From Deuterostichococcus epilithicus (Eukaryota; Chlorophyta; Trebouxiophyceae; Prasiolales; Stichococcaceae): a stretch of 64,000 bases of DNA. The number at the start of each line of letters is the position of its first letter. Position 1 is the stretch's first letter. The position numbers were made by a program, and so were the translations under genes. Below are positions 1 through 64,000 of the stretch, piece after piece. Under the pieces are notes generated by a model. That model searched no databases and was not told where the DNA came from. It worked only from the letters and a program-made list of their open reading frames with translations. The stretch covers positions 3,770,501 through 3,834,500 of the forward strand of contig JAVTLE010000005.1 of NCBI GenBank assembly GCA_033439295.1. Direction: 5' to 3'.

Positions 1-3000
1 GATCAAACAGTCTCCACCTGCGGCAGAGTTGCAAGCTGGTGGGATTGGCAATTTGCCAAAGCCCGTCAACAGCCGCAGCGCAGCAGGGCAGCAGCAGAGC
101 AATGCGTCAGTGGGCCAGCCAGGATAAGCCTGGCCGCCTGTCTGTGACCTGGCTGTGCACGCTCAGTGGCATTTTCTCCCGTCCCCCGTGCAACGTCCTG
201 CCAGCTCTTGCCCCACACATGATGCATGCATAAATGCATGTATGTGTGGCGCGCCAACTGGCAGGTTCGCGGCAATGCAACGGTTGTTATCAGGGGAGCC
301 TGCCCCCTTTGCGGCAGAGTGATACGATCGACAAGGCACCTCACGTCACCCCCTTCTGCCAGTTCTGAGGACTGACACCATTTTCATGCGGTGAAAGACA
401 CCAGGCCCGCACCCAAGCAGCACGCCAGCCAGGTCCAGTCCCACCATGCCCTTGAAGCCGGCGCCGATGGAGAAGGGATAGTCCGGCGCGAAGATCAGCG
501 CTACCTAGGACGTTCATTCAAGACAAGTTTTTTGATGGTTGCATGGACTACACCTGTCCCAAGCGCCGCTGGTATTGCACCAAGGTCGGTGATGCAAGCT
601 GGTCAGACTTTCGCCCGCTGCTGCTGGCGCCAGCACAGCCTGCTCCCTCCAAACGTGACGGCGTGGCGTTTCAGCGGCCCGTCACTCTGGAGGAGCTGTT
701 GATTTAGCTATCGCCCAGGCAGGACTGCATTCTGCTGTACGTTCACCCATGTTGAACACAGAGAGCGAATCAAGAAAAGCAGACAAGCACCTGGCGCTCC
801 GGCTGGCGGGCGGCCACCATGGCGAACAGCGCAATGACGGCGCCCGATGCGCCGAGTGATGGCCGGATGGCCTGCACCCGCTGCAGCAGCGTCGCTGCCG
901 GGATGTTGGCGCCCACCAGCGGCCACACCTGCGGCGGCAGAGCGTGAAGTGGATACTTACTTGTATTATATATGCACCAGTGGCTGGGGTGTCGGCGCGG
1001 TTGTCGGAGCTCTGGTCGATGCCGGAATGGCCACAAGTGCAAGCTATGGCAGCTGCAGATTGATCAGTTGCACCGCCCAGTGCCTGTAGCAGCTGGGGTG
1101 GCAGGGAGACCATCCCGCCCAGCATGAGTGCGTATCAAATGAGCTACAACAGGCAGGCAGCAACAGACTTTGGCCGCAAGTGCGGCAAGGTGAGTGGCCT
1201 TGGCCGCTCCATCTGCAGGCATCCGAAGCTACATGAGTGCAGGCGAGCCGCACCGCGGCCGGGGCGACTGGCTGTGGCGCCTCCCCCGGAAGTTGTAAAA
1301 GAACTGAACCACACCGAAACCCACACCACAGGCCAGGTAACGGGTCATGGCGGCTCCAACTGAGCCTGACATACATGGCGAGAGGGGCGGCACCGTGGCT
1401 AGATGGCTGGCAAGCGAGGCCAGCACCGCGGACGAGACATAAAAGGCCAGAAACTGTTCCCGGCCCAGCTCCTGGAACGCGACGTGCCCAAAGCTCCACA
1501 GCGCCAGCATGTTGCACTGCGGCAGCAGGGCGAGAAGGGGTCAGGGAGTGACCATGCCAGCCTTTTGCGGAGCTGCTTCCCCCGGGGCGCCATGCGGTCA
1601 AAGCGCCATAGCGGCAGCATGTCACGCTGCGACGGCAGAGTGGACCAGTCATCATTGGAACCACATTTTCTCGGCAACCGTTTTCACGGTCGTGGGGAAG
1701 CAGTTGAGCTCCTGGCGCGCCATGTGGCCGAGGCTCCACAGCACCAGGATAATATAATGAAGCCATTGAGGCGATGGTTTACAGCAGTTATCTCATGATG
1801 GCGTGCAGGGGGTTGCAAGAGCAGCCTGCTTCAGCATGCAAGCGGCACTTGCACAGAGCTCCACTGCGGACTACACTGCGGCAGGTATGGTATGCGTCCA
1901 TTCTCTTGACCATCTCTGCATCGTTGCTCACACGCCGCGTGCGCAGCATAGTGCAGCACCGCATCCGCACAGCTATATGGCTATCGAGACGTGATGATAA
2001 TGGGTGCCCACACAGAGAGTCTGCAGCACAAAGCTGATGCCGCGGGACATTGCTGCGGCTGCGGCGCGGCAACGCTGGCCATGAAGGCACGAAGTCAAAC
2101 CCCGAATGCGCAAGTTGGCAAGTTGGCAATGCACAGGGGCTCACCGCAAGGTGCAGGGCACCGCGGTGGCTGAACGCGCTGGCCAGCAGCGTGCGTACAC
2201 GGCCGCTCCCAGGGGTGTGAGCGAAGTTGCGTGCCATGATCGGCCGCAGTGGCGGCAGCCGCCACGCCATCGAGACGGCTGCGTTCACGGCCACCTGCGC
2301 GCATTCATGCAGCAGCGGGTGAACCTTGGATCGCCATTGTGCGACTGGCCCCTGGCTCGCGGGCTGCAAAGCATGCGGGAAGTCCTCCGGCTCTTGCATC
2401 TGACCATTTTCGGAGCCGCAATAGGATGGAGGGGTATTGGTTGGAAGACAAGGGGGTTGCCCAAATTCCGGTAAGAGGTGGGCGATGGGAAAGTGCGCAC
2501 GATGGCGGCAAGGGTGCGGGCAGGGTCTGGCATGGAGGCCCAGTAATGCGCCACCGGCCGCAGCAGCAGTGGCAGGCTGTCTGCCCTGCACCCCCATCGG
2601 GCCAAGAGTCAGCAACCGCTGCACAACTCCAGATCCTGCCCTTGTTCGTGGCCCCTGCACTAGTATTGCAGGACTCGAGCAGAGCCATTCTGACCATTGA
2701 CCAGCAGTGCAAGTGCACAGTGGCCAGGAATGCCTGCATGAGCGTATAGTCTCATGATACAATGAACGCATCAAGGCGGCTGATGTCTTGTGAGATTGTG
2801 CGTGGCGACGCAAGGCTCTGCGGTAAAATTCTGCCGCTTCGTTGCACAGGACCGCCTGTGGCGATGCGTGGGCCGCCCTCTGACGACTGAGCCCTCAGCA
2901 GCGCCGATGCAACCAGGCAGCTGTCCACCCATTCTCAAGCCTCGTAACACTGCCTCAGGCCCAATTGCAGCATGACGAGCACACCAGTCGTGGGCGGTGA

Positions 3001-4519
3001 GCTGGTGTGGCGGCGGCAGCGACCGGTCGTGTTGCCCCTCCCGCGTCTCGCCATCCCCGCCGCCGCCCAGCCACGGCAGCTGCCGCCAATCGGGCAGCAG
3101 GCCGTGCCGCTCGTCGGCGCCGGCGCCGCGCTGGTCGTATAGCCACACGCCATACTCCCTGCACAGGGTGTGCAGGTCTGAACGTCAGCGCTGCAGACCT
3201 TGCTAACAAGCAGAAGTATACGCCGAAACACCTCAAGAAAGGGCAACTGGCATTCGAGAACAGCTGGCAGCCTGGACTGGCCTGGATACATGCTGTACAG
3301 CCTGTCACAGGAGCCAGGAGGGCCTTTCCGAGAGCCGACTTCGGACACAGACACTCGCATTGCGATGATCTGACACAGTAAGAGAAATCTGCAGGCCCGG
3401 TACGGCGGGCCTCGCCCACGGGTTCGTCCCTCGTCTGCAATCTTGTATTCCATGTCTGTACGTCTGCGTCTGTCCGTCTGGACACACGGACAATGCAGTC
3501 ATGTAAAAAGCAGTGACGTAGTTTGAGGATTGGATCAAGATACATTTGTACCGACCTGCTGCGGCGGTCCTCGTCCACAAGCAGCGCCCACAGGAAGGCG
3601 CCGCCGGCCACCGCCGCGCTGAACACGATGGGCAGCACGATATGCTTGCCATACCCAAAGTGTGGCACACCTGCACCCAGATGCACGCAGGGAAATTTTG
3701 TGATGGTGTAGATGCTATTTGTCAGGTGACATCCTACAACACACGAGGAACGCTTGCAACACGCCTTGATGCAATCCCTGTGACATTGCATGAGTGGCAC
3801 AACTGCTCATTTGCAACATGCATGTGAGCTGCCGCTCTCAGTACGCAGTGCATGCACCGGCCGCGAGATTTGCACGCACCTGCGGAGCCGCTGCTGGCGC
3901 CAACTCCGGCAGCCTGCTTCAGTGCGGCTGGGTCCGATACCCACACTGACTGCTGCGGCACCGTCTGAGGTGCCAGCTTGGTGGAAAAGGACGCCCTGCT
4001 GGCCACCAGGCTCATGCCGACGCTTGCGCGGGAGCTGCCGGCTGATTGCTTTGCTGCCTGCGCGGCCGCCTCAGAGCGGGCTGCAGCACCATGCGCCGCC
4101 ACCGCCGCCGCTGCGCCACCGGCTGCCGCGCCGGTGGCTGATCGGCTGGCTGAGGTGCCGTAGAATGCTGCGTTGCTGCTTACGACGGCCCGCAACTCGC
4201 GTGTGACCGGCGCGCTTATGCGCGATGCCAGGCTGAGCAGCTGCCGCCAGGCAGCAGCCGAGGTCGGCGATGCCGCGGCTGCAACAGCTGCTGCCATTGT
4301 GGCTGCAGGTGGCGCAGCCCTCGTGCCGGACTGTGCGACAACGAACGCACTGCGGCAGCTCGCGGCGGCTGCTGCAGCCAGGCCCTGGATGCTGCGCTCT
4401 CCGGCTGCAATCGTAAGGGCGGGTGCGGCATTGCGGTCGCGCCTGGCGACCTCAGCACTCCTGACGTGCAGCATGCATCGGCTGCCTGCTCGACGCCACG
4501 CGGACGCCAAGCCCCTCAT
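1..4519 (-). CDS. Mitochondrial-type rhomboid protease (PARL/RBL12-like), 3' end outside window
   Basis: Intramembrane serine protease, probably of the inner mitochondrial membrane. Exons on the minus strand: 4519-3880, 3670-3556, 3158-2985, 2294-2145, 1516-1475 and on to about 1391, 928-791, 504-413, 17-1. The first exon has a true ATG and encodes an Arg/Ala/Ser-rich, presequence-like leader (MRGLASAWRRAG...) of about 213 residues. The second holds a likely membrane segment (KHIVLPIVFSAAVAGGAFLW). The exon at 2294-2145 carries the loop and helix ending FSHRGALHLA, the next begins CNMLALWSFGH, and 928-791 carries the catalytic-serine motif GASGAVIALF. The last exon in view reads WRLFD; the catalytic histidine should follow outside the window. 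Phases agree at every junction except between 2985 and 2294, where a small exon of length 1 mod 3 is probably missing. The end of the 1516 exon is approximate. Confidence 0.85.
1500..1765 (-). repeat. Three degenerate copies of a rhomboid exon start
   Basis: On the minus strand the start of the functional exon (ATG complement at 1508-1510) encodes LALWSFGHVAFQEL. The intron upstream holds two decayed copies, at about 1570-1625 (reads LPLWRFDRMA) and about 1690-1755 (reads LVLWSLGHMARQEL). Spacings are about 110 and 130 bp. Only the first copy continues into a full rhomboid helix, so the other two look like duplicated and decayed exon heads. Confidence 0.75.
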
Positions 4520-5316: not shown

Positions 5317-7792
5317 ATGGTGCCTCCTGCGAGGCATAGGGTAGTCCTGGCGACGGCATACGTTGCGATGGCGCTGGTCAGCTGCCAAAGTGCAGCCGCA
5401 CTGGGCTTAGGGCCGACGCTGGGCGCTTTGGTCGCCCCCTTCACGGCAGCGGTGGCGCCTGCATCAGCGAAGAACCACGCGCATGGGTGCAAGCCCTCGC
5501 AGGTGATTCCGAGGACGCTGATTCGGCCGGTTGCATGAGATGTTGTCCTGGCATGCAGAGTAGTCCGTTGCGGCAATGCAAGCCTCGGCGCCATAGCCCT
5601 AGCACCTAGCTGCCCTCACTCCAAAAGCCGAGTGGTGTCTCGCCCTGCCCCTCGTATATCAATGCCTGCTGGATGGCTTGATGGTGGCGCTGATGCGCCA
5701 CAGCGGCGCAGCCCGCTTGCGGCCTGCCAATGCAGTCAACTGGTGTCCATCAGCGATCCTGATTGCTAATGGAGCACGTTGCTGTGTACCCTGCAAAAGC
5801 TGCAGGTTGTCCTTGACGTGCCTGCGCCTGTGACACCTGGAGCACTGCAATTACCAGCATGCTGTAGTCCCGAAGGGTGTGGCCGGCCTTGTCACTTTCG
5901 GGGAGCACTGCAGTGTGTGCATGGCCTCCCCTCCCCCGCTCGCCCTCGTGTAGCTTCTCTTTTGACAACCGCCGTCGCATGCAATTCGGCAGATGCACCT
6001 GGCGGTGACGAGCCAGCCGGGCTGATCAGAGCCCCTCCACCAACCCTGCCAACCCGCTTCTGGGACCTCTGCTCGACGCTTCAAAATTCCAATCGGGCAG
6101 GTGCATCTGGCGGTCACGGGCCGGCCGGACGAGATGCGCGTCATGTGGAAAACGCGCAGCCGCTCTTGTCCCACTAAGGTCCACTATGGGGAAGGCATTG
6201 TGGACGATGGCGCCGAGGACGCCGCCTTCCTGCAGAACAGCCTGGTGGGTATCCGCCACCTGCTGCACCAAGGCAGGCCACCTGCCTAGCCATCGCACGC
6301 CACAATATGACGCTGCAGCTGCCAGCATATAGCGGTATATATGCTGCACTCTGTAGTGCCTCCTTTCAGCAGGGCACGGCCATGTGTGCTCTGATGAGCT
6401 GGACGGAGGGCATCTTGTTGGCACCGCCTGGCCTGCGATGGCTTGAATCCTGCCCAGCATGGCCGTCACCGACGCGGCCAGCGCGCATGGGCAAAACGCG
6501 CGTGCGCCGAGCCGGCAACTGCTCGGCATCAGCCGTACGACTCTCCTGGGCAAGCGGCACCCTCAGACCCTGGCCGCTCCTCGCTGTTCTGCAGGGCTCC
6601 GTCAAGTCGTACTCGGCGTCAGACATGTGCGCCAGCCCGGCGCGAGACTACAAGTACGAGGCGCCCATCCTGCACGACGTCGTGCTCACCGGCCTGGTGG
6701 GCCCCCTCTTGCGGTTGGAAACTGTAATTGCGACAGATTCGCTCATGTGCGGTTCGCTGCTTTGGCCCTTGCGTAAGCCTGCACCCTTCTTGCTGCGCCA
6801 GAGCCAACTGACACAGTACCAAATCCACGCATGAGCAATTGGTGCGTTGCCAGGCTGCCCAATCGCGGGCGGTGCTTCACTAGGCGCTTGTCAGTTGCAC
6901 ACAATGGCCCAGCACCCTGGCGCCGGGAGCCGCTGCATGCGCCTGTGGCTGGCCCAGTCGCAACAGGCTGCATACGCCGCCACACCCCGGTCTGCCGTTA
7001 CCTGTTTGCCCAAAACTCTCAAACCTCGTGCGCCTGCACCGACAGACGCCGCGGCGGTGGTACAGCTACAAGGTCGCGCACGGGGACCGCATCCTGCGCT
7101 TCCAGGCGCCGCCGCCAGCCGGCCGCAAGGAGGGCTTCCAGTTCCTGGTGTACGGCGACATGGGCGACCCGCACCACCGCAAGGCCAAGGCCCCCGGGTA
7201 AAACCTAGACACCTCTATTGTTGTGACACGTCAAGGTGCCACTCCGTTCTGGACCTCAAGCAAGGACACTGTGAAGCCTGTCAAGGGATATCACTTCTAG
7301 CAATTCGGGCGCTAGCATTACTTTCTGTCCGGCTTCTCGCGGAACGAAACGACAGGAGGTTCAGTACGATTGCTCAGCCACAGCGATCCGGCAGGCTGAC
7401 GAGTGTTGTGATTACACCCATACCGCTGCCTGGGCCCTCATCCTCACAGCCATTGCCCTGCTGTGACCGCCGGCTGCATCTGCTGAAGACGCGGCACTCG
7501 AGGTGACGGCCGGCGGGGACGCAGTACCGCTCGCGGCCTTGAGACGTTGGCACCTTGCTGCCAAGCTTGTCGCTGAATAAACCGTGCGGGGGCTGCCTGT
7601 GGTGCAGGGCGGGCGGCACGGCGGAGTATGTGGCACGAGATGTCGCAGCGGGAGCGGACATGGTGCTCCACGTGGGTGACATCGCATACGCCAACGGGCG
7701 CGCCGATGTGTGGGACTCCTTCATGGACGCAATTGAGCCCGCCGCCAGCCGAGTGCCCTACATGGTCGCCGTCGGTGGGCCCTTATGTGAAA

Positions 7793-7828
<36 letters not shown>

Positions 7829-24587: not shown

Positions 24588-27500
24588 CTACTTGACCATC
24601 TTAACCTTCATCTGCCGCTTCTGCATGACCGCCTTCCGCTTCTCCTCATATTTTTGTCGCTGCTGCGGCGTCATACGCCGCATCTTCTCCTGCAGCAGGC
24701 ACGCAGGGAGGCATCATCGATGTGACCGCGAGTCTGACACCATTGCGATGTGGTTGCAAAGCATGCTGTTCCCTTGATGCTCTGCATGCAGCAAGGGGTG
24801 TGGCACATGGCATCCGACCCAATTGCAGGAGCAGGGTCCCTGTCATTCTGTGGCTGCGCTCAGAGCACAGCAGCCCTTTGGGCACTCCTTGCAGCTGGCA
24901 CCCTGTGCCGCATGCGACTGCCGCAGCCTCGCCGGCGGCTGCGCAGCATGCACGTGCCCGTGCCCGCCGCGGCAGCCCCAGACCCTTCATGTGTCGGCAC
25001 ACCCCTCGACTGTGAATGAGAACCCTTTCACACCTGCTCCTCCAGGAACTTCTTCTCCCGCCGCTGGGCCACAAGGTCCACCTGTACAGACACGGAATGT
25101 TGTTCCTGCTAATTCTCAGATTGTCTGTGTTTAAGGAATGCTTTTCACGAGGAATGCTTTGCATTTCTCACCTGCTCTGTCTCCCTCGCCTTGGCCTTGG
25201 CCTCGGCCGCCAGCACCTGCACGCAGCAGACGGCAAAACCCTTGGCAGTCATCGGAGCTCAGCTCGATGATCAACTGGATGGAACGCTGCTGATGCACCT
25301 CCTCGGCTCAGCCTTGGCCTCGGCCGCCAGCACCTGCGATCCGGCCTGCGCAATGGGCACACAGCCTTTGGCTCCTTCTGACAGGAGGGTCGATGCACTG
25401 CTGCCGCAAAGTGCGGTCCACCCCCGGCCCCCTGGGAGATGCCGCACATGCTGGAGGATTGGTGCATGACACAGGAGCAAGGATGGAGGAGCAACACAGC
25501 ACAGGTCGTTTGGGCGGAGCTCGACACGTAAGGCCAAGCCTGCAGAGTCATTCGCGGTGTGCGCAGGCTCGCAGCCCTTGGCGCTGCAGCGAGTCAATGC
25601 TGCGCCAGTGCATGGACATGCAGAGGCCAGCATCGACAGAGGCACCAGCACATGCGACGTCTCAGAAGGAACATCGTCGGCATGGACCTTTTCACGGCTC
25701 CTGCACGCACCTCCTGACGTTTGGTCTCTGCGCGCTTGCGTGCCTCAGGCGTCGGCTTATAGGACCCTACCACGTCGATGCACTCGCACACCGCTGCCAT
25801 CAACTTCATCAGCTCCCCCATCTGCGCGGCAGCGGCAGCCGACCTGGTAAGTGAAAGCCTGTGCGACAGGTGGCCAACTGCAGCTGTTTCGTAGGTGCCT
25901 CTGGCCGCACCGCCGCAGGGCATGCAAGTCGGTACTTTGAGGAGCGGCAGACCTATACAACTACGCTTGTCAGAGATGAGCATGCAGCTGCCTATGGCAG
26001 CGACTCGCACATTGAGAACTTTAGATGCATGTTCGAATGCTGGTTCCTGTCTGAAGAACTACATGTCAAGTACAGCTTCTCTGGCGGCAGCAGGGTGAAG
26101 GAGACGCGCAGCACGCCTTCTCTTTCCAGGAGCCCCCTCTCTTGCAGCGACATGTTAGGAACTTGTTGCACGAATACACCTTTTCTGGCGGCGGCAGGTT
26201 GAAGGAGAACCGCAGCACCCGCAGGCTGGCCGCCCTCTCGTCCTCGGTGGTGAAGTGCAGGAAGCGGAAGTACTTCCGCGAGGCCTCCCACGCGCCCTTG
26301 CCAAACACCTGCGCCGGTTTCGCAAATGTCGTCAAAAGATTCAGCAAAGATTTCGAGTGCAAGCGGAGCAGCTGAAGCGCCTTCGCACGGCCTTTCATGC
26401 GTTTCTGCCAAACACCTGTGCAGCCGGTCCGAGACGCTCATTACAAGAAGCTCAGGAGGGCATCAAAGTGCAGAAAGAGGATGAATGCGCGCGACGCTTC
26501 GCACGCCGTCGTCCCTGACGTCTATGCAGCCGACAGAGCGCGGAGATTGCCAAGACGCACGCGTAATGGTGGCGGTGTGCGCCGTGCACAGCACAAACGC
26601 CCGATTGGACCCATCGCAAGAGGACTACTGCAAGAGCCTTTGTTCCTGAAGGTGCAGGAAGCTGCTGCAGACAAGTTTCGTTCTGCCAGGCTGGCTGAGC
26701 GAGGCGGTCGAGCAGCTTGGCGGCAGCCAGGTCGCCAGCAGGACTGCACACTCTTGACAGCAGCTGACAGCAGGTTCTGAGATGCAGCGTGATGCTCCGT
26801 GATGACCGGCACATCTGGCATGAGGGGTCGTGCAGCAGCGACGAGTGTCCACGAGCACCGCCAGCTCTCGGGCATGGGCAACCTGGGCCCGGAACCATTC
26901 AAATTTGAGCCTGGCAACTTTGCAGAACCCAGGCAGGAGACTCACCTGGCTCAGCAGCGCGTCGGTCATGAGGTCGTACAGCAGCGACGAGTGCTCCGCC
27001 AGCACCGTCAGCTGCTTCGGTCCCGGCCAGCCGGCCACGCGGTCCCGCGGCACCTCCAGCCGCTTGGTGAACGCCTGCAGGTCCGCCTCCTCTGCGAGGC
27101 GCTCCTTCGCGAAGCGCGGCTGCCCGATGAACAGCACCTGCAGCGAGTGCATACCAGACGCGATCAGTAAAATTGTCTGAAGTCGGCACCTGGGGCTCCC
27201 CATCGCTTCATGCCCGCCTGTGCGCTGATGTGTGCCGCCAGGTCAACATCTGCATGAGGCTGTTTTGTGGGCTTTGCCGGCGCACCGCGCTGCTGTGTGC
27301 TGCTCGGCTTCTGGCGAGCGGCAACACGATACACGGCTGCGCAGGCTGTCTCAACCCCCAGCGTGTGAACTCCACACTCCGCGCCAGGGCTGGAGCCGCG
27401 CTGCTGGCAGAGGAAATCCTGTTCTCAATGCTGGTCCGAGATGCGAAAAACGGGTGACTCACCATTGGGGCCATAGCGCCCTCGTTCATGGCGATCTCAA

Positions 27501-40881: not shown

Positions 40882-43800
40882 ATGACTCCAACCTCGTCCA
40901 CCCTTTGTCGTGCCTGTGCATGCCGTGGCGGCGCACGAAGCATCGGCGCTGCTGCTCGGGCGCTCCTTGCTGACCCCGTGATAGTCTGGACCAGTGAAGT
41001 CACAAGCCCAGCCTTGCAGCACGGCAGCAGCGCAGCTGCGACATTGGCACAGGTCCCGAACCGCCGCAGTTCTCATCAAGGCAGATGTGGCAGCATTCGG
41101 GGGACCGCAGCGGCAGCCCAGCAACCCGCAGACGCCGCCTTTCTGGCTTGGCGGTTGCCGTCGCGTGCAGGCCTCACAACAAAGGCAGCAGGCCGTTCGG
41201 CAGCAGGCCATACAGCGCCACTGGCGCCTTCAGAGCCGCCGCAATCGGCGAGCTCCGCAGAGTTTTCTGATTTCGCGGCAGCGGATCCGACAGCAGCAGA
41301 GCCGGCGGCCGGGACGCCAGCAGAGGGTGAACCTGCCTGGCGCCGGCCATCAGAGCACAGCCGGCCCTGGAACAGGCCGCAGGACCGCCGACGACTGCTG
41401 GTGTACTACTCGGACCACTTCCACGTGGTGCGTCTGCTTCCCATTCGGGAATGCATTGCGACTCCAATCCCAGAGGCGATCATTCAGGCAGCATCTAGTG
41501 TGGGCTGTGGGCCACGTTTGATTGGGTCCATTGCCAAGACGTGATGTCTGGCTGGGGTTTCACCGGTCTCTGGCTGCATCATCTGCAGCTTTCCGGCAAT
41601 GTCATTGCAGGAGCTGCCAGAGGGGCATCGTTACCCAATGGCCAAGTATGCGCGTGCCCACCAGCAGCTGCGGGAAGACGCATCCCTGCACGACCGCATC
41701 AACTTCCAACCGGTGAAATTCACTCTCACCCTCGATCCTGCAGGACTGGAAGTTGACAAATATCGTAAGGAGCCCGTTCAGGGCTCGTCAGGACTCTGCT
41801 GGCCGGAGCCTGCTGATTGACTGGCCGGACAGCGCCAACCTGCTGCAGTGATCGAACACTGCCATTCCACCTTCTAGCCTTGCACCGAATCGACTGGCCA
41901 TGCCCGCATTTTGCAGGCGCCGCGGGCGTCGCAGGCGGAGCTCGGCGCGGCACACGACCTGGCCTACGTGCGGCGCTGCCTCGCAGGCGAGTTGGACGAG
42001 CGGGAGCAGCGTGCCATCGGGCTGCCCTGGACGCCCAGCCTGGCAGCGTATGCACAGTGAGCCCGCAGAGTCGAGGGTGTCGGGCCGCATGTCGGTTTGA
42101 GTGCACAGTGACGGCTTATGGCAGCCAGCGGCCAGCAACGGCACCTTCCTGTGACGCGGAACAGCACACGCGCGCACAGCTAGCCATGTGAAGAAACGGA
42201 CTTGCTGTGTCTATCGAAGGCCTCGAAGTCCACCAAGTGAGCCCCCTCTTCGGTGCAACAGCCATGACCACCACTGCGTGCCTTGCCACAGCTCGAGCGC
42301 AGCCGGCTGCTCTTCCCCTCAGGGCCTCGGCTGGCGGCGGGCTGGCGGCGACGCGGGCGGTGCTGCGGCACGGGCTGCCCGCCGCCGCCAGCCTCGCAGG
42401 TCCGCTTGTCTGATCCCGTTGACCCTGCTCGCTGCCCATTCATCACCGACTCGGAGCAGCCTGAAACTGAAATCAACTGCAAACATCAAAAGGCCAGCTG
42501 CGGCAGACAGAGCTGCAGCTGGGGTGCACACCGGCAAGGGCGTCGGCAACTGCCTCACACCTGTCTGTCGTCTGCGCGTCTTGCATCCCGGGTGATCGCC
42601 CCCAGTGCCACCCACATGTGCAACCGACACAATGTGTTTCTGAGAGGTGTCTCATGGTATTGCAGGTGGCACGCACCACGCTTTTGCTGACCACGGCGAG
42701 GGCTTCTGCATCTTCAACGACATCGCCGTTGCCGCGGCGGCCGCAATGGCAGACTTTGGCCTGGAACGTATCCTCGTCATCGACCTAGACGTGCACCAGG
42801 TGCTTCAACAACAACAAAAGAATGACGATGCCCTGCTGCTGTCGCCCGCTCGACGCTGCCAGCTGCATTCTCCCAAAGAACCTCCTCCCACCAATGCTGC
42901 AATGTAGTGGGATTCCTTTCTCAAGTATTGGAACGATGAACTTTTGGAAACAAGGTGCATAAGTACATCTAAAGAGCCACTCTGCTGGCCGCAGGGCAAT
43001 GGAACGGCGTCTGTCTTCCAGGAAGATCCTCGCGTCACCACCTTCGACCTGCACGGTGCGCTGTTGATGACGAGGCCACTCAAACGCTACACTTCCAGCA
43101 CGTTTGAATTGTCGGCACGGCTGTTGTGTGGCAGCGGAGGGGGCGAGGTCACGAGGGTTCAGAGTCCAGGCATGCTGGTCCTTTTACTCGACCAGTTTCA
43201 TGACATGCTCAACTACCATCGTATGGTGCGTCAACCAGCTTGTTGATGTGCTCGGTCACCTTCTGGAAGCCTCCACCGCAGGCGACAACAATTATCCGTG
43301 GAGGACGCGCCAGAAGTGCACATACGATATCGGGCTGCCCGACAACACGGATGACGCCGCATACATGCAGGTGCGTGACTATTAAGTATTGGCTACTGGG
43401 CGGATGCGCCTGCCCCCAGGAGCATCGCCATCGTCTGTTGCAGACGACTCTGTGGCAAATACATATGCGGCAGGCTGCCGGCCGCTACCCGTGCTGTGGA
43501 TGTCAGGAACCATTGGGGTTTGACCGGTCGCCATGGTTGTGGCAGGGTCGTGCGCCGGCTCGCCTGTGTCGAATTCTTTGCGCCGCCGCACCGTCTTGGT
43601 TGGCCGGCAAACGTTGTGGGCCGTGCTGATCTCCCTTTCGTACTAACCTAGTCACTACCATTGCCAACCTAGCAGGTGCTGCAGCAGTGGCTGTCGCACA
43701 CCTGCCGCACCTCTGTTCTGAGTCAGTCAACGCACTGTGCTTGCGCCGCCTCTGATGCCTGATCAAGCGCCGTGACGGCGCAGGTGCTGGAGCGGTGGCT

Positions 43801-45331: not shown

Positions 45332-48300
45332 ATGGCGGCGGTGCTGCGCGGCGTTGGTGGCCTGCCCTTCACCGCGCTGCGGCTGACGCTGCGGCTGCTG
45401 CGGCGGCTGCAGCGGGGCCCCGCGCCGCAGCACCTACTGCCGGTGGCGGGGCTGGACCAGGAGCGAGCGGCGCCGCTGCTCTTTGCCATCCGCGAGGCCG
45501 CCCGGGAGGCTGACGTGAGGTTTCACGCCTGCTTTGTCTGCATCGGACGGCACTTCGAGCTGTGCCCTGAGCTCCTGCGGTGGACCCTGAGCGAGGATCC
45601 AGAGGCTCTTGCACTTCGAGCACTTCTGCCATCTGCCTGCTGCAGCGGAGTGCAGAGGAGTGATGCAACATGAGACAACCCTGACTAACCTCTGGCACTC
45701 TGCTGGCGAGTGCAGCAGCCAAAGGGAATGGCCTGCCGCCATGAATGCTTTCTGCTGCAGACTTTGGCGCGCTGTTGGATCACACTTGTCTGACGCATGC
45801 TGCAGGAGGACAATGCGGAACTCCTTTCGCAGTGCTGCAGAGTCATGGCGCTTGGTGAACCTTTCTTTGACCCGTCCTGCAGGCGGACGATGCGGAGCTG
45901 GTGCAGCAGTGGCTGGCGGCGGCACAGCTGGCACAAATAGGCATGGACCGCCTCGTCGGCACACTGGAGCTGATCGAAGGTGTGGCAGAAGTCGTGTGGC
46001 GTGGCAGGCCTTGTCATTGTCGCACTCCAATGTTGTACGGCGCCTGTCGAACGTCTCGTGGGACCGTAGTGCCCCACTCCCCACGTGCTCTGCCGCTCTG
46101 CAAGGCGTGTCAGCTGAAAAGTCCGATTGGCCATTGGCAGGTGACCTGGCTTTCTGGCGTGATCGGCTGGAGGGCGGCAGCCGCCATGGCCTGTTCCTGC
46201 TGCTCGGCCAGGCAAGCGTTTTTTGCGGCAATTACAATGTATGTGTTCAAGGAAAGCCTGCCGCAGGATGCACATGCGCGATCGTCGACCCCTTCACCCC
46301 CTTTGATGCGGTTTAGGGGAGCAGCTTGACAAGCTGCCTCCCTCAGACTCCTTGGTCCGATTCCACAAGCAGTTCTCTGGGCCAGCGTACACGTGTCGGC
46401 TTGCAAACCTGCAGGGGCCGTCCAAATTCGCCCGCGACGTGCTAGCGCTGGTGCGGCGGGAAGAGCGGCGGCTGAGCGGGCGCCGCTCCCACCGCCGCGA
46501 GCTGACCGCGACCGAGAAGATCGAGGAGCGGGTGAGAGTTTCTGAGCGGCGTAGGCGCCAGGCTGGTCGTGCTCAGGACCTGCAGCCTACCTCTTCGCTC
46601 TCTGTGAGCTGCACCATGCTGCGTGCCGGGGTATCGAATGACAAGGATCTGAAACCGAACACTGAATGCCGGGGACTGCCGGTCACCGAGCACAATTATT
46701 GACAATCCTCCAGCCTCCGCTGGGGTCGGGTTTGCTCATGATACCAAAAAAAGTTAGTGGGCGTGATTGTTGATTCCTGCTGCAGGTCACCATCCTGCGC
46801 AGCCTGCAGTCGCGCCTGGCGGAATCGCTCGCGGGCCTCAATGCCGGCGCGGGCCAGCTGCACTTGCGCGGCCCCAGCCGCGGCGGCGGCGGCGGCGGCG
46901 GCGGCAGCGCCGCCAGCCTGGCGGCGGCGGGCGGCGCGGGGGGCCTCATGGCCATTGCGCGGCGTAGCGTGCAGGCCAGCCTGCTGGCCACAGCAGAGGT
47001 GCGGCTTTCTTAAACCCTTGAAAACCAACCCCTAGCAGGCATTCCTCGTCCACACCTCCGCGTGAATCTGGTTGGTCGCCCTCGCGCAAACAGTCTCACT
47101 GGCATGCCGCCGGCTGCGCCCCCCCACCTGGCCGAGCCGCTGCACGGCGTCGAGGTCGGAATCGTCCAGGCTTGCCCTGGGAGGTTAGGTTGCGGGCTAT
47201 TGAGCGCCTGGAGCCGGTTTGTCAGCAGCTGCAGCGCACCTCAAAAAAACCTCACGGGGGCAATGTCCGACCTCACCGCTGTGTCCCGGCAGCACGTCAC
47301 TGCAGGCGGTCTGTTCCCTGCAGGCTTTCGAGCGCCTGGAGCCGGTGCGGCAGCAGCTGCGGACGCGCCCTGAGGCTCTGGCCCTGCCCGCCCCGCCCCG
47401 CCTGCCAGGTGCCGCTTCCTCACCCGAGCAACCGCCAAATCAGGCAGCCTGTGCACGCCGGCGACGCCTTTGCTGTGCGTCCACACTGTGCCCTGCAGGC
47501 GGTTTGGGCCGAGCGCCTGCAGCGGCAGGCAGAGTGGTCGCTCAGCTGGCTTGATGTGCTTAGTCACCTGCCCGCCAGGCACCATCACATGTTGCCGTGT
47601 GCATGCTTGCACAGCATGACAAGCTTGCCATAGAGGGTGTGGAGGGTAGGCCTGGCCAAGCATATGCCTGACCAGACATTTCGAATCGAAATGCCCGCAT
47701 CAGCTGACGAGCCCTTGTCCAAGTCTCAAGGCGGCAGGCCCTGCGCAAATGTGGGCGTCGTCCGCCTTGATATGCTAGGTCTGGCATACCCTACTGCCAC
47801 TGGTGGCTGAGCCCAAATCGTAAATTTTAGACCTGTGCCCCCGCCGGCAGCAGGACTGAGGCGCAACGCAGGGCGTTGCCCGCGCCAGCAACCACCATGC
47901 TGTGTCGGGTTGCTGCAGGCGGCGCTGCAGCATCGAACTCCGAGGAGACAACGCCATCGGCGGCGCCGGCGGGAGCGGCAGCAGCACCGCGGCCGCAGCA
48001 GCAGCAGCAGCAGGGCGAGGCGGCGGCTGCGTCGGCCGGTAATGGAGGCGGCAACGGCAGAAACGACGGCGGGGACGGCAGCATCGCGACGGCGCTGCAG
48101 CGTGCGCAGCGGGCGCTGGGCACTGATCTCCACGTCGAGCTGGAGATGACGCTTACGGAAGTCATGAAGCTGGCCAACAAGTCCGCGCACAAGTGAGCCC
48201 TTTAACACCCGTATGCTCCTTCCTCTTCGTATGCACACTCTTTGGATCTGTCAGACATGTGTTGTCTGAGACGAGTGCTGCGCTGCAACCTCGGTCCAGA

Positions 48301-51300
48301 TGCGCATCGTCAGGGCAGCTGTGCTGTGCCTCAAGCGCTGCGGGCTGCCCAGTCGCTGGGGCTGGCTGCCGGCTGCACATGCGGCCGCGGGCCGCATTCC
48401 TAGAGCCACAGCAGCGGAGCGTGCTGCCAAACGCAGGCCAGGCGCGGCGCCGGAGCTGCCGCCGCAGCCAGTGCAGTGGCTGCACGGCTACATTCCGGTT
48501 TCAACGACGGGTGCTGCTGCACTCAGTGCAGGCCGGGCCTGGCGAGCAGAGCTGCTGCCGGGCGGGCGCGCAAGCTACCCTAATCGACAAACCCGAGCCG
48601 TGCGCCTGCAAGCATTCTGCACCACGTACTGGCGTGTCCGGCTCCAGCAGCGGCTACTGAATAAGAAGCGCACACTTGTTCAGCAGGCTGGACCTGGAGA
48701 GGGTTGAGTAGAAAAAATAACACAAGTGCAGCCCGGGGCGGCGCGCGCTTTGCTCCTCGAGGCTGTCCACTCGCCATGCACACAGATCCGCGCAGATGGT
48801 GTGTTGTCAACAGGATGCATGCTCCCGCACCCGCAGGCTGGGCCCGGTGCTGGAGCTGCCGCCGGGTGTTCGCGCCCCGTCGGGGTACCAGCAGTACTGG
48901 ATCCGCTACGCCGCGGCGGCGGCCGCTGCCGGCTATGCCACCATCTTCCTGTACAGGTAGGGCATGTGATGACTTCATGCGATGGGATGCAGCGTCTGAC
49001 GCAGCTGCGTCATGATGCAATGCAAACACGGCGGCGGGCCGACGCAATCCTGGTGCCCAGCGGCCGCCGCTGGCTCCATCGTCACCAGCATCCTGCACGG
49101 GTGGTGTCCTAACGAGCTTCGTCTCCGGGTGCAGAGTGTGCTGCACTGCTGACGATGGGATGAAACAGTGGGATGTTTGACAGCAGCTGTGTCCTGCACC
49201 TCGCTTTGCCCTGCGAGGGGCAAGTCAAGCGGTAAGCGGAGGGCAGGGCCGGGCAAAATCCCCGCAAAAGAAAGAGCCGTCGCGCGGAATGTCTCGCAGA
49301 TAATTGAGACCGCTGCCATGGACCCTGCTTGCTGCCGTTCACAGCCAGCATGGCAATCCTGCAGCTCACTCCTTACTTCTCGTTGCATCGACTGCGCGTT
49401 CATGTCTTGGCGGACAGGCACTCGCGGCTGTCGGGCAGCCGTGACATGGAGCGATGGGCGGGGCAGGCGGCCACAGGGCTGCGCAGCACCTATCGTGAGA
49501 ACGTGCTGGCGCCGCTGGCGCAGCTGCGGGACGAGCTGTTCAAGACATTCAGGTGTGTGTGACGTCCCGCCGGGCTGGCGGGGCCCCATCTCGAGCACCT
49601 CGTGTCGTGGCGGTTGACGGCGGCTCGTCCCAAGGCAGGCAGACGCAGTGAGCTGTTCAAAAGCTGCAGCCGTGGCCGCCTCTCAGTGGCCTGTCCGACC
49701 CCTGCCCTGCTGCACCGCCCACAAGCGACTCTCCTTCTGAACGGCCTTTGAAGCGCCGCATCGTGAATGAGACGAGAGAGCCGCGGGATGCCTCTCAAGA
49801 CAGCTGGGTGCTCTGCGTGCGCCTGCAGGCAGCGGCGCAGCATCGTGAGCGTGGCGGAGTATGAGACCGACCGGGAGAGCCTGCGGCGCATGCTGGCCGA
49901 CTTCCAGTCGGACTACCTCGCCAAGCACAAGGTGGGCAGCAGGTCGAGTCTGGTGTGTGCTGCATCCCTGCATCGCACACAGCCAGTGGCAGGCCGGCTG
50001 AGGCACCGTTGGCACCGACTGTCCAGAGTCCGCCAAACCAGCCTCCTGCAGCCCAGTGCATTCGGCTGCCCAGTGGCTTCTCCATCAGCGGCGCCCAATA
50101 CCCAGTTACGACGGTACAAGCTCAGACGCGGGTAATGTTTTGTGCGCGCAGGGCCAGAGCCCGGCGAACCGCGATGCCGCCGCCGCCAGCCCCGCCGACG
50201 GCAACCTCACTGGCGGCGAGAATGTGGCAGCGGCCAAGGCGGCGGCGGCCGCAGGCGACGAAATGATGCCGGGCATGGCCTTCATGATGGACGCCTACGA
50301 GCAGGAGCTGAAGCGGCCCATCCGCAACGTCGTCAACGGGCAGCTGCCACGCACGCTGCTCATCCAGGTGGGTGTCTATGCAGCGCTTTTTTTATTATAT
50401 GTTTTTCAATGAGGCCTCAGCGATTCCGCAGGGTCAGGTTGCTGCAGTAGCGCGGCCATGCTGCCGGCTGCCGTGAGTTACTGCCCTACATGCGTGCACC
50501 ATCTCTGCCGGCCCTTGCCTTGCACGAGTTTCTGTCCACACTTGGGCCGAGCGCGCGCGCATGTTCTCTGCCAGTTGCGGGTGCGCATGCTGGAGCAAGC
50601 TGGACACCGAGCTGGTTGGGAGATGGAAGTTTTCTCACTCTTTTGGGCATGACGAAGGGAGTGCGTGCACCCTGTGCCGGCTGCAGGTGCAGAAGCTGAA
50701 GCTGGACACCGAGTCGGCGATGCTGGAGATGGACCAGGTGATGCCCGCTGGTTGTTGGCCTTGCACCGGCACAGTCCAGGGACTTCGGTGCTGCAGCAGC
50801 GCAGTGTGCCGTCCTGTGCACAATCGTGGGCATGCACACACTCACCCGTGCTGCTGTGCATGAAGATGTGTCACCACCTGCATGTAGGTGGATGACGCTT
50901 TGTGCATGACGGCCATGACCCAGCCAGAGCTGCCCGGCAGCCTGCGCGGCCGTGCATATGTCAGCGTCAACACCAACCAGGTTCCAACCTGCCTCGAAAC
51001 GTGGACCGTTCACTGGCCACCGTCTCTGCCTGCAGCTGCTCAAGGCGAACGAGCTGAACCTGGCGCTGATTGCCGCCATCCCGGCATTCCTGGTGCGCAG
51101 CCATGTCTCCAGAGTCTCCTGCTGGCAACGCATCTCACCTGCACTTGCTTCCCCTCCGTTCTGCCGCATGCCTGCAGCCTTACACATGCAAAGGGTGTTG
51201 CGGCGCACACGCGCAAGGTGCCTTGGACGGCCGGGCATATGAGACAGCAACAAGGGAACATCCTGGTGCTGTGTGCCCTACAAGGACACCGCTGATCGCA

Positions 51301-55800: not shown

Positions 55801-55822
55801 CTCGATCTGTCACGCGCACCAT
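52805..55822 (-). CDS. Gly/Asn/Gln-rich disordered protein, cluster member 3 (354 aa)
   Basis: No known family recognised; LEA/hydrophilin-like composition. Exons on the minus strand: 55822-55733, 55321-55221, 55045-54976, 54710-54612, 54398-54273, 54009-53929, 53707-53609, 53362-53050, 52890-52805, all in phase. Residues 1-30 are charged (MVRVTDRVGNTSEFV...). Residues 31-327 are low complexity: Gly, Asn, Ser, Gln, Tyr and Asp modules such as SGYTGTASGYGG, GGYNQGPRNTDFGG, SGFGGGNTNIGSGNEG. Four middle exons begin with a Gly codon pair (GT or GG) and end in Gln, all phase 0, so exons look like repeat units. The end, SEHYERRTHNKSDHQEEE, matches the tails of the two upstream neighbours. No signal peptide or membrane segment. 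Any role in stress or desiccation is inference. Confidence 0.85.
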
Positions 55823-56532
55823 GATGCTCAGAGTTTTTGACTGCCTGCTGGAGACGTTGACGTCCTGTTAACTCCTTCTCAAGAGGAGAGAGAGACGGGA
55901 GGATATAATTGCTCTGACGAGAGCTTCCCGGAGAAGCGGGAAGCTGTGTCATTCTCCTTTGTCATGGTGACGGAACGTGTTCTGTCCCCCAGCTGTTGAG
56001 TTGTTCGCCAGAAGAATATAACCGAGATACGGATCGGCTTGCACCATTATGAATAATGGCCTATTGCCAGCTCCAACTTGTGTAAGGAATGTAACATACA
56101 GTTGCTTATTGGCCCCGACGCCGGCGTACACCAATTGTGTTTGAACATGTGAAACCATCATTATATGCCCTGCTCTGGACCGCTTGTGCTGCTGAGCGGT
56201 AGCAGCACTGACTGATGAAACAAGTGCTCGATGCGATGCTACGATAGCAGTGATGAAGCAATTGAACAATCGACGGCCAGTAGGTGTAAATATGTCTTCT
56301 GATTGGGGGTATATAGATCGGCCTTTCACAGAATGGATGAAGGGCGCACACGCTGCTTGCAGCACGTGGCACAGGGGTCGATATTGTTACGAGCAAGTCC
56401 AAAGCACGCCGCTTGCGAGGCAGAAGCTGCATCGTCGTCATGATTCCGGAGTGTTGCAAGTGGCGAATGTCACACAATTGGGGGCGTCACGCTGTCATCC
56501 ACATCATCTGATCTGAAGCCAGTAGCTCATGC
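55823..56532. promoter_or_regulatory. Intergenic, promoter of cluster member 3
   Basis: Holds the 3' side of member 2 and the promoter of member 3. On the minus strand a TATA-like AATTATAT lies near 55902-55909, and a perfect 8-bp inverted repeat with a 6-base spacer lies at 55923-55944, about 100-120 bp before the ATG. Confidence 0.5.
55923..55944. promoter_or_regulatory. Inverted repeat upstream of cluster member 3
   Basis: Arms GCTTCCCG (55923-55930) and CGGGAAGC (55937-55944). It could be a protein-binding site or a 5' UTR hairpin. GAA/TTC units are present but not in regular heat-shock-element spacing. Confidence 0.5.
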
Positions 56533-58347: not shown

Positions 58348-59060
58348 GGTTGCTTTGAAACTGCTTTGGAGGGCGTTGAAGTAGTTAGACAAAATGCTCC
58401 GAAGCCAGTGTGCTGATAGAAAATTATAACGTGTACTCCTGGCCTCCTTGCTGTTGCCTCAGCAGAATCTGAATCCAGCTGCGCGACAGCTTCGCCCTCG
58501 TTCACGGGGTCACGTGGGGTTGCTGAGATGCTGACTGGACCTGATGGCCTGGACAGCTGGAGACCGCGACAGGATTTCACAGTATCACAGTATCAAATCA
58601 CCATTTTTTCCACCATTGCGCATCTGGACACATTGAGGGTTGACTAGATGCACACATTTTGCACCCAGATGCACATTGTCGTATTTGGCAAGTGAGTCGG
58701 AGAAGGTTTACAAGCTAGGTGCACTAAGACGCACATGCCAGAAGTGTCGTTGCCTCGGCAGCACAGAGAGGGAGGAGAAAGGACAAGGGAAGAGGGAAAG
58801 GGGAGGGAGGGGGGAGGTGGTGGTATATGGGGGCTGGGGTGAGGTAGTGGTATTATGAGGGCTGCCTGCCTGGTGCGGCGATCACATACTGCTCATATGC
58901 GTCGATTGCAATGTTCAGCCTTGCATTGCTTTCACAGCCTTACTCAGAACAATATGTACGAACCGTCAGAAGTCTGAGTCAAACCCGGCATCCGAAATGG
59001 CATTTCCACTGCAAAAAGGCATCGCTGAATTGCTGCCAAAATCAATTTACTGAAAGATCG
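58348..59060. promoter_or_regulatory. Intergenic, promoter of cluster member 2
   Basis: Contains the 3' side of member 1, a purine-rich tract, and the member 2 promoter. Spacing to the next gene (about 0.71 kb) equals that between members 2 and 3. Confidence 0.5.
58787..58814 (+). other. G-quadruplex-capable G tract
   Basis: Five G runs of three or more, separated by 1-4 bases, lie within a longer purine-only stretch (about 58768-58817), some 440 bp before the member 2 start codon. Confidence 0.8.
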
Positions 59061-61641
59061 CTATCCGACGGTGCGCTGCTCATACGAGTCGCTCTCGTTG
59101 TGGTCACTCACGTTGTGGCCCTTCTTCTCATAGTGCTCCTGCGGCGTGTGCCCCGCGCCGCCGCCGAGGCCACCACCAATGCCCTGCCCCTGCTCACGGA
59201 AATGACCAATATGGATCAGCTAGGCTGAGAGCAAGCATTCTGGCTGCATGCTACTATCTCATATGTACTTCACTACAAACTGCAAGGCCGGACTTGCACC
59301 CTCACCTGCTGCTGGCCGGTCAGGCCGCCCTGGTTGCCGTAGCCCTGCTGGCCCTGCTGGCCGGTCAGACCGCCCTGGTTGCCGTAGCCCTGGTTGCCAC
59401 TGTCGTAGCCCTGACCGGTGACACCCTGCCAAGCAAGCATCGCAGTCAGTCCTGGTGGCTGCTTGGCATTCTGTGTGGCCTGACTGGTAATGCCGGTCTG
59501 GCAAGATGAACAGCATGTGCCACCATGGGAGGCCGACTTTGCTGACCTTGTTTGGGGCTGAGGCATATCATCAATCAGACCAGTCACACCTGCTGGCCTC
59601 CGGAGCTGGAGCCGTAGCCAGTCTGCTGGCCGGTGCCGGTGTTGCCATACCCCGACTGCTGGCCGGTGCCCTGGTTGCCGTAGCCCTGCTGGCCAGCGCC
59701 GGTGGTGCCATAGCCCTGCTGGCCAGTGCCCGTGGTGCCATAGCCCTGCTGGCCGGAGCCGATGCCTGCACGATACAGTCCTGTTTTAACAGATGCCTGG
59801 AGACACAGCTGCTGCGCTCAGGCCTCTACTGCGAAACTTGGCACGAAGCGTGTCAATGCACTGTGCTTAAACCATCACGGAGCTGTGTGGGCTGTGCAAT
59901 GCCAGCTGCACGGACGACCACTCAACGCCGGCAATCAGGTCTTCCAGCAAGCTGTCGGAACCTCCATGGCATCTTCCTGGCATCAGAGAAACAGCGTTCT
60001 GCAGACATCTAGGGGGCACACCGCCAGCGCCGCCCACGCCGTCGGTGGTGACCTCGAAGGAGACCTCGCCGGCGGTGCCGCCGGTCTTGGGGTCCCGCAG
60101 CTGCACCGTCTGGCGGCCGCCGCTGCTGATGTCCACCTGCAGGTTTAAAACACGCGCACGAGTCAGCAGAGCCAGATGGCAGCGCAGAAGAGCCTGGAGA
60201 AGCTCAAGTCATAGTGCCATGCAACGCATGGGCTGTCAGTCCACGTTAGCACGGGATGCCACGTCACACGAGGGCTCCTGTGTGGCAGTGAACGGGAACA
60301 GCTGAGGATGCAGGCAGGCGGTGGACTTTGGGAGGCCCTGTTGTCAGGAGGTTCAGCAAAAGCAGCAGACATTGTCCTCACCTGGCCCTCGCCAATGACC
60401 TTGTCCGGCAGCAGGGTCTTGCTGGCTTTGCCCTGGACCCTGCATCACGGCACGGACAGTCATGTTGGCCCAATATACAGACGCATCCTGATTGCCACCG
60501 CTTGTGCGGTGCTCTCACAGTGCAGCCCTTGAGGTGTGGAAACTGCCGTAAGCCGCCGACCATGAGCAGGCTGCATGATATTGACACCTTCCTCGCTGCA
60601 AGAGACCCGGTATGGGGCAGGCAGGGTGCAGCAAATCGATACAGAATCACGGTGGCTGAAAGGCTCTCGAGTGTGTGCCGGATCACAAAGCATACCATCA
60701 GGCCGGACACGGATGCCTGCTCTCGAGTGTGTGCAGGATCACAGAGCATACTCAGGCCGGAGGCCGATGCCTGCTGCATTCGATCACCACCAGGGAGCTC
60801 TTGGATGGAACGCACGTGATGCGGGATCCTTTGATGCGCAGCTCGATGCGGTCGTCCCAGTTGACGACGCCGGCGCCGGCCTTCTTGGCGACATCGGTCT
60901 TGGCGACGTGCACGCCGTGCTTGTCAGCCTGCATGTAGGAGATGCACAGCCATGCCACTCAACTGAAAAGAAAGGCCCTCACACGGATAACGTGGGGGCA
61001 AATCAGGACGTGGTACGAATGCAAGCGGCACGATCTGCTGGATCGGAAATGCATTTGTGCGATAATAATTGCGGTGCAGAGCTGAAAAAGAGTCACCTTG
61101 TCGTCATTGTCACCGTCGAAGTTAATGAATGGACTCATGTCGCCGATCTTGGCCTGGTCTTCATAGAAGTTTGCCTGCGCACCATTCAAGTAAAAACCTT
61201 GAAGCAGGAGAAACAAACCAACCCAAGGCACAGCCATGTCCTAGGAAAATAATGCCACGTTGAGTCATTCTTGATGACTTCGCCACCTGTCTACTTTCGG
61301 AAGCGCAAAGAACAACGATCACGGACAGGGCAGCGAAATCGGACAGGGCAGCGCAAGTATTTGCGGTGTAAGACAATGCCTGCAAGTTTTTCAGTTCCCG
61401 CGCGTGCTTTTAGACGTGTTGCACCCGTACTAAAGAACAACAAGAAGTGTGGATCCGGCGAGAAGACTGCTTTGCGCCCGGCTTGGATCCGGTCGCTGTG
61501 GGACGGCAGTGCTATAATCGAAACTAACAGAGCTCTTGGGAAAGCGCAGATGCACTGCACCACCCCCGTTTCCGCATCCGGTGGTCGCACAGCGATATCG
61601 GACCGACGCACCGTAATGCTGTGGATGACAATTTTCGTCAT
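59061..61641 (-). CDS. C2-domain protein with GQQGYG repeats, cluster member 1 (272 aa)
   Basis: Exons on the minus strand: 61641-61612, 61174-61097, 60928-60816, 60439-60382, 60136-60022, 59765-59590, 59425-59306, 59189-59061, all in phase. Residues 1 to about 130 form a C2-like beta domain: [71 protein letters not shown]. Asp residues in the first loop and around GDNDDK could bind calcium. Residues 133-230 are perfect-looking repeats of the [10 protein letters not shown] and [10 protein letters not shown] type, like prion-like or FUS-type tracts. Residues 231-272 are the cluster tail, [21 protein letters not shown] lipid- or calcium-responsive, self-associating protein is a reasonable guess, no more. 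Confidence 0.9.
60665..60774. repeat. Tandem duplication of about 56 bp
   Basis: Copy one 60665-60720 and copy two 60721-60774 differ at a handful of bases and a 2-base gap. They lie in intron 3 of cluster member 1 and end 41 bp before exon 3. Confidence 0.95.
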
Positions 61642-63837: not shown

Positions 63838-64000
63838 GTGGGAGGTTGTGATACATTTATGCACAACAGAGTGATACACAGTACCTGACAGGCGCTCCCT
63901 CGTCGTCTCCCGTCCCAGCCTGTAGGCGTGTATGGGGCCTGACGCATGAACGTCTGTGTGAATGTGGCGAACCTTCAAGCTCTGCCACGCCACCCATGTC

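Follow-up and report, generated by a model that had tools for sequence, protein, structure and literature searches.

Introns of the green alga Deuterostichococcus epilithicus carry decayed partial copies of the borders of their own neighboring exons. The case was followed from a stretch of 64,000 nucleotides (nt) on contig JAVTLE010000005.1 of assembly GCA_033439295.1 (C5:3770501-3834500), referred to here as the window. Such a copy of an exon border within an intron is called an echo, and d is the distance between the copies. The echoes lie adjacent to their source exon, in direct orientation and at a recurrent spacing; on the acceptor side, the introns that hold them are longer by one unit, their decay looks neutral, and they are in excess over duplications inside introns. 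The explanation favored here, with a probability of roughly three in four, is that these introns grew by tandem duplication of a ~120-bp unit straddling the splice border, mostly the 3' border.

Exon Borders Resemble Their Own Introns

The analysis covered 314 kb: the window, 200 kb upstream of it on the same contig (C5) and 50 kb of a second contig (C1), out of a genome of 46.8 Mb in 21 contigs. A preliminary description of the window had claimed that introns hold decayed copies of adjacent exon borders, and this is confirmed, far above chance. At a gapped score of at least 14, 48 of 516 exon starts match their own upstream intron, versus 8 of 1548 comparisons with random introns of other genes (Fisher p 4e-22). 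The same threshold is reached by 7/516 exon starts in reverse complement, 4/297 for the intron after the exon and 4/473 for the intron before. When only the first 45 nt of the exon are compared, 44/546 reach a score of at least 13 against their own upstream intron and 4/546 against a foreign one. A scan of all offsets in the 264 kb of C5, from which low-complexity pairs were removed, gave 25 exon-intron direct-repeat pairs with a score of at least 18 at offsets of 60-199 (140 offsets) versus three at 1000-3999 (3000 offsets); these counts are pairs and not independent events.

The donor side shows a smaller excess. Exon ends match their own intron at a score of at least 14 in 22/502 cases and random introns in 16/1506 (Fisher p 1.3e-5), and the preceding intron in 1/298. 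Expressed as the excess over background at a score of at least 12, 11.2% of the introns are concerned at acceptors and 5.2% at donors. The similarity is adjacent-only, direct in orientation and, for exon starts, upstream-only: the comparison of introns with flanking exons, run on all 314 kb, is clearly above every non-adjacent control. The window alone contains 126 introns, with a score of at least 14 at 8 of 106 testable acceptors and 4 of 106 testable donors. Echoes are present on both contigs (36/428 introns on C5, 12/88 on C1), and no clustering in particular genes was found (p 0.67).

Gene Models and Scoring

Exons and introns were taken from a gene finder self-trained on the C5 sequence, which yielded 38 predicted models with 492 introns (median intron 262.5 nt, median exon 120 nt); C1 added 99 introns, and the 587 introns with sufficient flank were kept. 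The predicted consensus is AG|GTGCG at the donor and CTGCAG|G at the acceptor, in a window sequence of ~61% G+C. Introns of at least 80 nt entered the 45-nt exon-start test, those of 100-1200 nt the gapped contrasts, and those of 230-900 nt the search for internal duplications and the acceptor-versus-donor counts. An echo intron is one that an adjacent exon border matches at a gapped score of at least 14; all introns scoring below 14 form the comparison group.

The self-trained finder joins neighboring genes, and tiny exons may be miscalled. For example, the predicted model from -4515 to 4474, which crosses the left edge of the window, fuses the rhomboid with a second protein, presumably cytochrome b561/ferric-reductase-like from its translation; these are probably two genes. 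A coding minisatellite with Tandem Repeats Finder periods of 72-156 occupies approximately bases 51,700-52,350 of the joined C5 sample (within C5:3620501-3630500, a 10-kb piece with 15 N). The interval 48,000-58,000 of the joined sample, with this satellite and some true echoes, was left out of the counts of short duplications and annotation-light pairs and kept in the all-offset counts.

Anatomy and Spacing of the Echoes

Among the 29 acceptor echoes with a score of at least 18 and d<200, the copies are on average 120.7 bp apart (standard deviation 19.8, range 77-160 bp), so the figure of 75-150 bp given earlier broadly holds. The spacing has no evident frame preference (remainders of 0, 1 and 2 in 12, 8 and 9 of the 29). 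Averaged over these pairs, the similar region spans positions of about -15 to +55 relative to the acceptor, with background on both sides. A wider ungapped set comprises 44 acceptor rows, including five at d of at least 200, some of which are second copies; 25 segments of the 44 rows span the acceptor, the unit covering the 3' end of the intron and the 5' end of the exon. The ungapped echo ends 36-140 nt upstream of the real acceptor in 28/28 pairs (gapped ends can lie nearer), hence the retained border has an upstream stretch of its own. A third copy is present in 6 of 27 echo introns with room for it. In the three-copy cases inspected (e.g., C1 sample 25121-25670 and C5 sample 56351-56928), homology is also visible in the spacer, the intronic tail of the unit.

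The duplicated unit is read as ~60 nt of intron and 55 nt of exon, with the intronic part decayed on both sides; in individual cases, a less simple copying event is possible. In the proposed mechanism, the unit would consist of the intron end (~40-90 nt, expected to hold the branch point, the pyrimidine tract and the AG) and the first 30-75 nt of the exon. The downstream copy, carrying its own 3' splice site, would become the working border, and the upstream copy would leave with the spliced intron, now one unit longer, and undergo neutral decay. Repeated events would leave two or more echoes. The unit itself would arise by tandem duplication at the DNA level, for example by fill-in of a staggered break or by slippage.

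Intron Growth Versus Intron Birth

The length of the echo introns agrees with such growth. Acceptor-echo introns (n=48) have a median of 375 nt, compared to 262.5 nt for the rest (n=468), and after subtraction of 120 nt the difference disappears (255 nt, p 0.73). The contrast stays when only introns of at least 170 nt are considered (381 vs. 281.5 nt). In length, acceptor-echo introns look like ordinary introns to which one unit has been added, which supports growth and not birth; the earlier suggestion that introns grow by tandem duplication is thereby upheld at acceptors.

Birth by tandem duplication had been suggested too. According to the Rogers model, an exonic segment with AG|GT is duplicated and a new intron arises, bounded by both copies; its length should then match the copy spacing. 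Length and spacing agree within 3 nt in only one of the 44 acceptor echoes, and in 43/44 rows the copies are inside one single predicted intron. Furthermore, the echo is preceded by intron-like sequence in the cases inspected. The lone fit is the CCDC47 intron 25217-25333, where length and spacing are both 117 and CAG|GT stands at both ends. This intron depends on a predicted exon of 12 nt, and it may conform to the growth pattern under another gene model. The same pair of borders (25184-25220 and 25301-25337; 37 nt, 92% identity) is the source of the "27 identical bases" mentioned in the preliminary description.

A second point in favor of birth is the approximately twofold enrichment of CAG|GT among echo introns: GT follows the acceptor in 16/48 echo introns (33%) and in 82/468 others (p 0.012), or in 13/44 and 94/543, respectively, for the ungapped set (p 0.065). 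Over all introns, the proportion is 107/587 (18%), equal to the independent-base expectation of 0.177. The statement that many acceptors are followed by GT is reproduced for CCDC47 (6/9), yet the rhomboid has 4/8 within the window, where 5/7 had been claimed, and the overall 18% indicates that the argument was built on unrepresentative genes. AG|GT at the duplicated border is enriched in echo introns and not required. With a CAG|GT border, a duplication may be better tolerated, the upstream copy being removable in two steps, but most events took place without it. As a general explanation, AG|GT birth is rejected by the comparison of spacing with intron length and by the one-unit length difference, and we hold it highly improbable as the origin of the echoes. 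A zero-length exon, i.e., recursive splicing via CAG|GT, was considered as a requirement and rejected as well, since 32 of the 48 echo introns have no GT after the acceptor; it could help in some of them.

Splice Borders Versus Intron Interiors

Tandem duplication or slippage that is blind to location, and whose products persist wherever they are spliced out, would also fill introns with copies. It predicts duplications of the same size in intron interiors, and these are rare. Among 266 non-echo introns of 230-900 nt, five have an internal duplication at a score of at least 14 and four at a score of at least 16, whereas 67 are expected if the unit holds at least 45 nt of intron tail, and 35 if any position is allowed. 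These expectations take positions as uniform, d as 120 and the detection ratio as 0.9, with the indel rate estimated by eye. Counted by windows, 13/2064 reach a score of at least 14, versus 11/2868 in the foreign control. Simulated detectability is alike for border and internal copies up to 20% decay per copy; at 25%, it is 0.31 for internal and 0.61 for border copies. The alternative put forward earlier, general slippage persisting only in introns, is thus a poor fit, the internal duplications being ~9 to 17 times too rare.

On the other side, short tandem duplications (<70 bp) do occur inside introns, some of them young and nearly identical. An intronic array of period 77, 91% matched (C1 1,040,570-1,040,719; C1 sample 40570-40719), sits just below the 80-170 size range of the internal control. 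A size spectrum falling above 200 bp, combined with a lower limit set by splicing, could also yield a border peak at 100-150 bp. Overall, the location-blind process is considered unlikely; the border class differs from the general duplications in size, place and age.

Two short duplications in predicted introns of the window are young, unlike the old 120-bp echoes at borders: a perfect 22-bp tandem duplication at 57139-57185 and one of 56 bp at 60663-60775 (94% over 33 nt).

Acceptors exceed donors in echo frequency (38/324 vs. 17/315, p 0.005). As the cause of the preference for borders, a mutational bias acting locally at transcribed splice borders, or an exon-wide bias of which only the border events survive, seems to us more likely than selection for extra splice sites. 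If borders truly surpass interiors, some feature of transcription, splicing or exon DNA directs the sites at which duplications arise or persist.

Fate of the Upstream Copy

The copies do not behave as coding sequence. Mismatches are nearly even over the codon positions (0.19, 0.16 and 0.24), and use of the upstream acceptor would introduce an in-frame stop in 14/29 cases and a frame-changing length in 17/29; taken together, this indicates that the copies are not coding. It also speaks against the view that echoes are alternative or formerly used exons, derived from tandem exon duplication, or decoy acceptors maintained by selection. A copy of the complete exon is not the pattern, as an echo extends to the exon end in 1 of 32 cases. 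The AG is kept in 18 of the 22 upstream copies, which would suit a decoy, but this is not above the neutral level (p 0.16). The median acceptor strength, scored with a position weight matrix, is 4.32 for the upstream copy and 5.38 for the real acceptor (n=24, p 0.016), and a neutral simulation gives 4.0-4.4 at 20-15% change, in agreement with the observed value. Selection against the upstream acceptor is not seen either in the retained AG or in these strengths.

Consecutive predicted acceptors are mutually similar at a score of at least 18 in 5/539 pairs (control 2/1617), with exons of 6-42 nt between them, which would suit a copy that is occasionally treated as an exon. These are either echoes misread as tiny exons by the finder or real exonized copies, and they are possible exceptions to the rule that no separate new intron was created. 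An origin of the echoes as exons or selected decoys is, all things considered, very unlikely.

Donor-side copies have mostly lost their GT, which is kept in 2 of 10 (three if a one-base shift is allowed), for an expectation of 0.69 (p 0.002 or 0.014). It seems that an extra acceptor does no harm and an extra donor does, although the numbers are small.

Age of the Copies

For 35 segments of at least 30 nt, with a score of at least 18 and d<200, the mean identity is 78.8%, and only one segment reaches 90%. The spread of identities fits a single age (chi2 40.6, 34 degrees of freedom, p 0.20), in a test weakened by a detection floor near 70%, below which very old copies are invisible. Outside this set, some pairs have an identity of 90-95%, e.g., one of 20 nt (95%), two of 22 nt (91% and 95%) and, on the donor side, two of 27-30 nt (d 255 and 344). 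Among 32 annotation-light pairs at 70-199 bp (at least 25 nt), a single pair, located within an exon, has 95% identity, and no pair falls between 90 and 95%. The copies look old. Under a constant rate, young copies should be more numerous, hence a past wave is the simpler reading, and one that the data suggest.

Intron lengthening is usually ascribed to transposons and random insertions. A more far-reaching and tentative possibility is that a past genome-wide wave aimed at splice borders enlarged about one intron in nine by a ~120-bp module, perhaps through transcription- or splicing-coupled breakage at exon starts; introns would then have a way of lengthening that is separate from transposons, slippage and intron gain. 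If so, the number of events would be on the order of ten thousand in 46.8 Mb, extrapolated from the 314 kb. Alternatively, selection favoring a second 3' splice site, and not mutation bias, could have driven a past wave of border duplication. The higher frequency at acceptors than at donors and internal sites would agree with such selection, as would the compatibility of the identities with one age; there is, however, no sign that the upstream acceptors are conserved, and a wave of this kind appears quite unlikely.

Observations That Fit Less Well

Several points weigh against growth by duplication of a border unit as proposed here. The scarcity of young copies misfits a steady process. The exons and introns themselves are predictions by a self-trained finder. 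A tandem duplication should have doubled the spacer between the copies too, yet outside the inspected cases homology of the spacer is mostly undetectable: at p<0.1, it matches the left flank in 8/29 cases and the right flank in 5/29, with ~3 expected by chance. Either the intronic copies have decayed on both sides, or some events were not simple tandem duplications. The donor side is accommodated less easily. Introns with only a donor echo (n=20) have a median of 463 nt versus 257 nt, and remain longer after subtraction of 120 nt (p 0.018); this difference of ~206 nt is above one unit, and the simple account leaves the excess unexplained. Such cases must reflect either the addition of more than one unit or a bias in favor of long introns. 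The donor-side echoes also begin 46-140 nt into the intron (12/12), an offset of at least 46 nt that the branch-point argument does not explain. Finally, coding ends without an intron have one echo in 68, which differs from acceptors (p 0.007) and not from donors (17/315, p 0.22); these counts do not separate a bias at splice borders from an exon-wide bias.

Echoes Within the Window

The window proteins have Pfam matches to rhomboid, purple acid phosphatase, CCDC47, a rubrerythrin domain, fasciclin, histone deacetylase and NCA2. The rubrerythrin-domain protein is taken to be CHL27, and the name DGS1 for the NCA2 gene is likewise an assumption. Echoes had been attributed to six genes. They are clear in the rhomboid (two echo copies), the phosphatase, CCDC47 (echoes in three introns) and the NCA2/DGS1-like gene, and weak at best in the other two: the top score in CHL27 is 13.5 across 12 introns, and fasciclin has one weak match (score 15.0), with the odd geometry of d=281 in an intron of 257 nt, its remaining 11 introns scoring at most 11.0. 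The HDAC-like gene, before the NCA2/DGS1-like gene, also has one clear echo (Table 1).

Table 1. Echoes and related exon borders in the window; positions are counted from its first letter.
Feature	Position	Strand	Basis
Rhomboid exon, start copied into upstream intron 1517-2144	1394..1516	-	Gene model; Pfam Rhomboid 1.2e-17
First echo of rhomboid exon start, CAG included, d=110	1581..1638	-	Repeat scan and predicted intron
Second echo of rhomboid exon start, d=240; makes a three-copy array	1707..1750	-	Repeat scan
Echo, d=108, from the exon start of purple acid phosphatase (copy at the exon 6090-6128), CAG kept	5982..6020	+	Repeat scan; Pfam
CCDC47 exon border, copy 2 (CAG|GTGCTGG...)	25184..25220	-	Repeat family D6
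CCDC47 border, copy 1, d=117, equal to predicted intron length; sole birth-like candidate	25301..25337	-	Repeat scan
CCDC47 exon 26180-26308, donor-side echo of its end, d=104; donor GT changed to CT	26071..26114	-	Repeat scan
Acceptor-side echo of CCDC47 exon 26180-26308 in intron 26309-26945, d=107, CAG|GT kept	26370..26421	-	Repeat scan
Second acceptor-side echo of CCDC47 exon 26180-26308, intron 26309-26945, d=213	26466..26506	-	Repeat scan
CCDC47 exon 26946-27137, donor-side echo of its end in intron 26309-26945, d=146	26826..26847	-	Repeat scan
Echo of exon start, HDAC-like gene, d=108, CAG|GT kept	43672..43693	+	Repeat scan; Pfam Hist_deacetyl
Echo of the start of exon 45883-45979, NCA2-side gene, d=77	45775..45834	+	Repeat scan
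Echo of the start of NCA2/DGS1-like exon 47324-47408, d=128, 86% identity, CAG changed to CGG	47191..47232	+	Repeat scan; Pfam NCA2
Exon 48837-48956, donor-side echo of its end, d=144	49060..49102	+	Repeat scan
Identical core of 15 nt, acceptor-side echo of exon 50687-50737, d=102 ungapped, 100 gapped	50597..50611	+	Repeat scan

At 52805-61641, on the reverse strand (-), three neighboring predicted proteins of low complexity, rich in Gly, Gln and Asn, have a common C-terminal motif recognized by eye, EH(F/Y)E(K/R)(K/R)xHNxxDHxE...E; they possibly form a small tandem family.

Implications and Comparison with Known Systems

Ordinary introns carry, in these echoes, datable fossils of a lengthening event, and the echoes are frequent enough for the process to be studied statistically within a single genome. 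For gene finding, the echoes are a warning: intact-looking decoy acceptors are present ~120 nt upstream of many real ones.

Related events have been described elsewhere. In the RdRp gene of potato, RNA-seq and phylogeny showed that a tandem duplication crossing an exon-intron boundary made a new intron together with an inserted exon piece (Ma, Lan and Niu 2016, PMC4974935). In both systems, the unit consists of the 3' end of an intron (in potato with the branch site, the pyrimidine tract and CAG) and the 5' part of an exon, and the splicing signals of the retained border derive from the parent border. Unlike in potato, the copy appears here to have been absorbed into an existing intron, in about one intron in nine. 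The AG|GT tandem genomic duplication model (Rogers 1989; Hellsten et al. 2011; reviewed, with its tally, in PMC3443670 and treated in PMC4974935) likewise involves a tandem duplication near splice signals and the precise or near-precise removal of one copy. That model yields an intron of unit length from exonic DNA, whereas a single acceptor echo in 44 fits this outcome in the present sample.

New introns of Daphnia lengthen by internal repeats ascribed to staggered double-strand breaks, and share repeats of 4-12 bp with one adjacent exon (PMC4202315). Duplicative lengthening after the origin of the intron is common to both cases; in contrast to the short exon-shared repeats of new Daphnia introns, the units described here are old, ~120 bp in size and centered on the acceptors of ordinary introns. 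In Drosophila, novel introns were derived from duplicated proto-splice sites (PMC2891723), also by tandem duplication including splice-like sites, but there exonic duplications create intron positions, and here existing introns lengthen. Short direct repeats at intron borders are the subject of a 2025 survey (PMC11782384). Introners (PMC9860276; in Micromonas, PMC3879977) resemble the present case as a mass change of intron content in an alga; unlike them, the echoes are not a dispersed intron family. Introner families were rejected on the basis of only three similar intron pairs at E<1e-3 among the 587 introns of the 314-kb sample.

In the titles, abstracts and passages of the open-licence literature, no report of border-centered intron growth at this frequency was found. 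Boundary-crossing duplication is already known from single cases; the new part is its frequency, the preference for borders and the outcome, which is growth of the intron.

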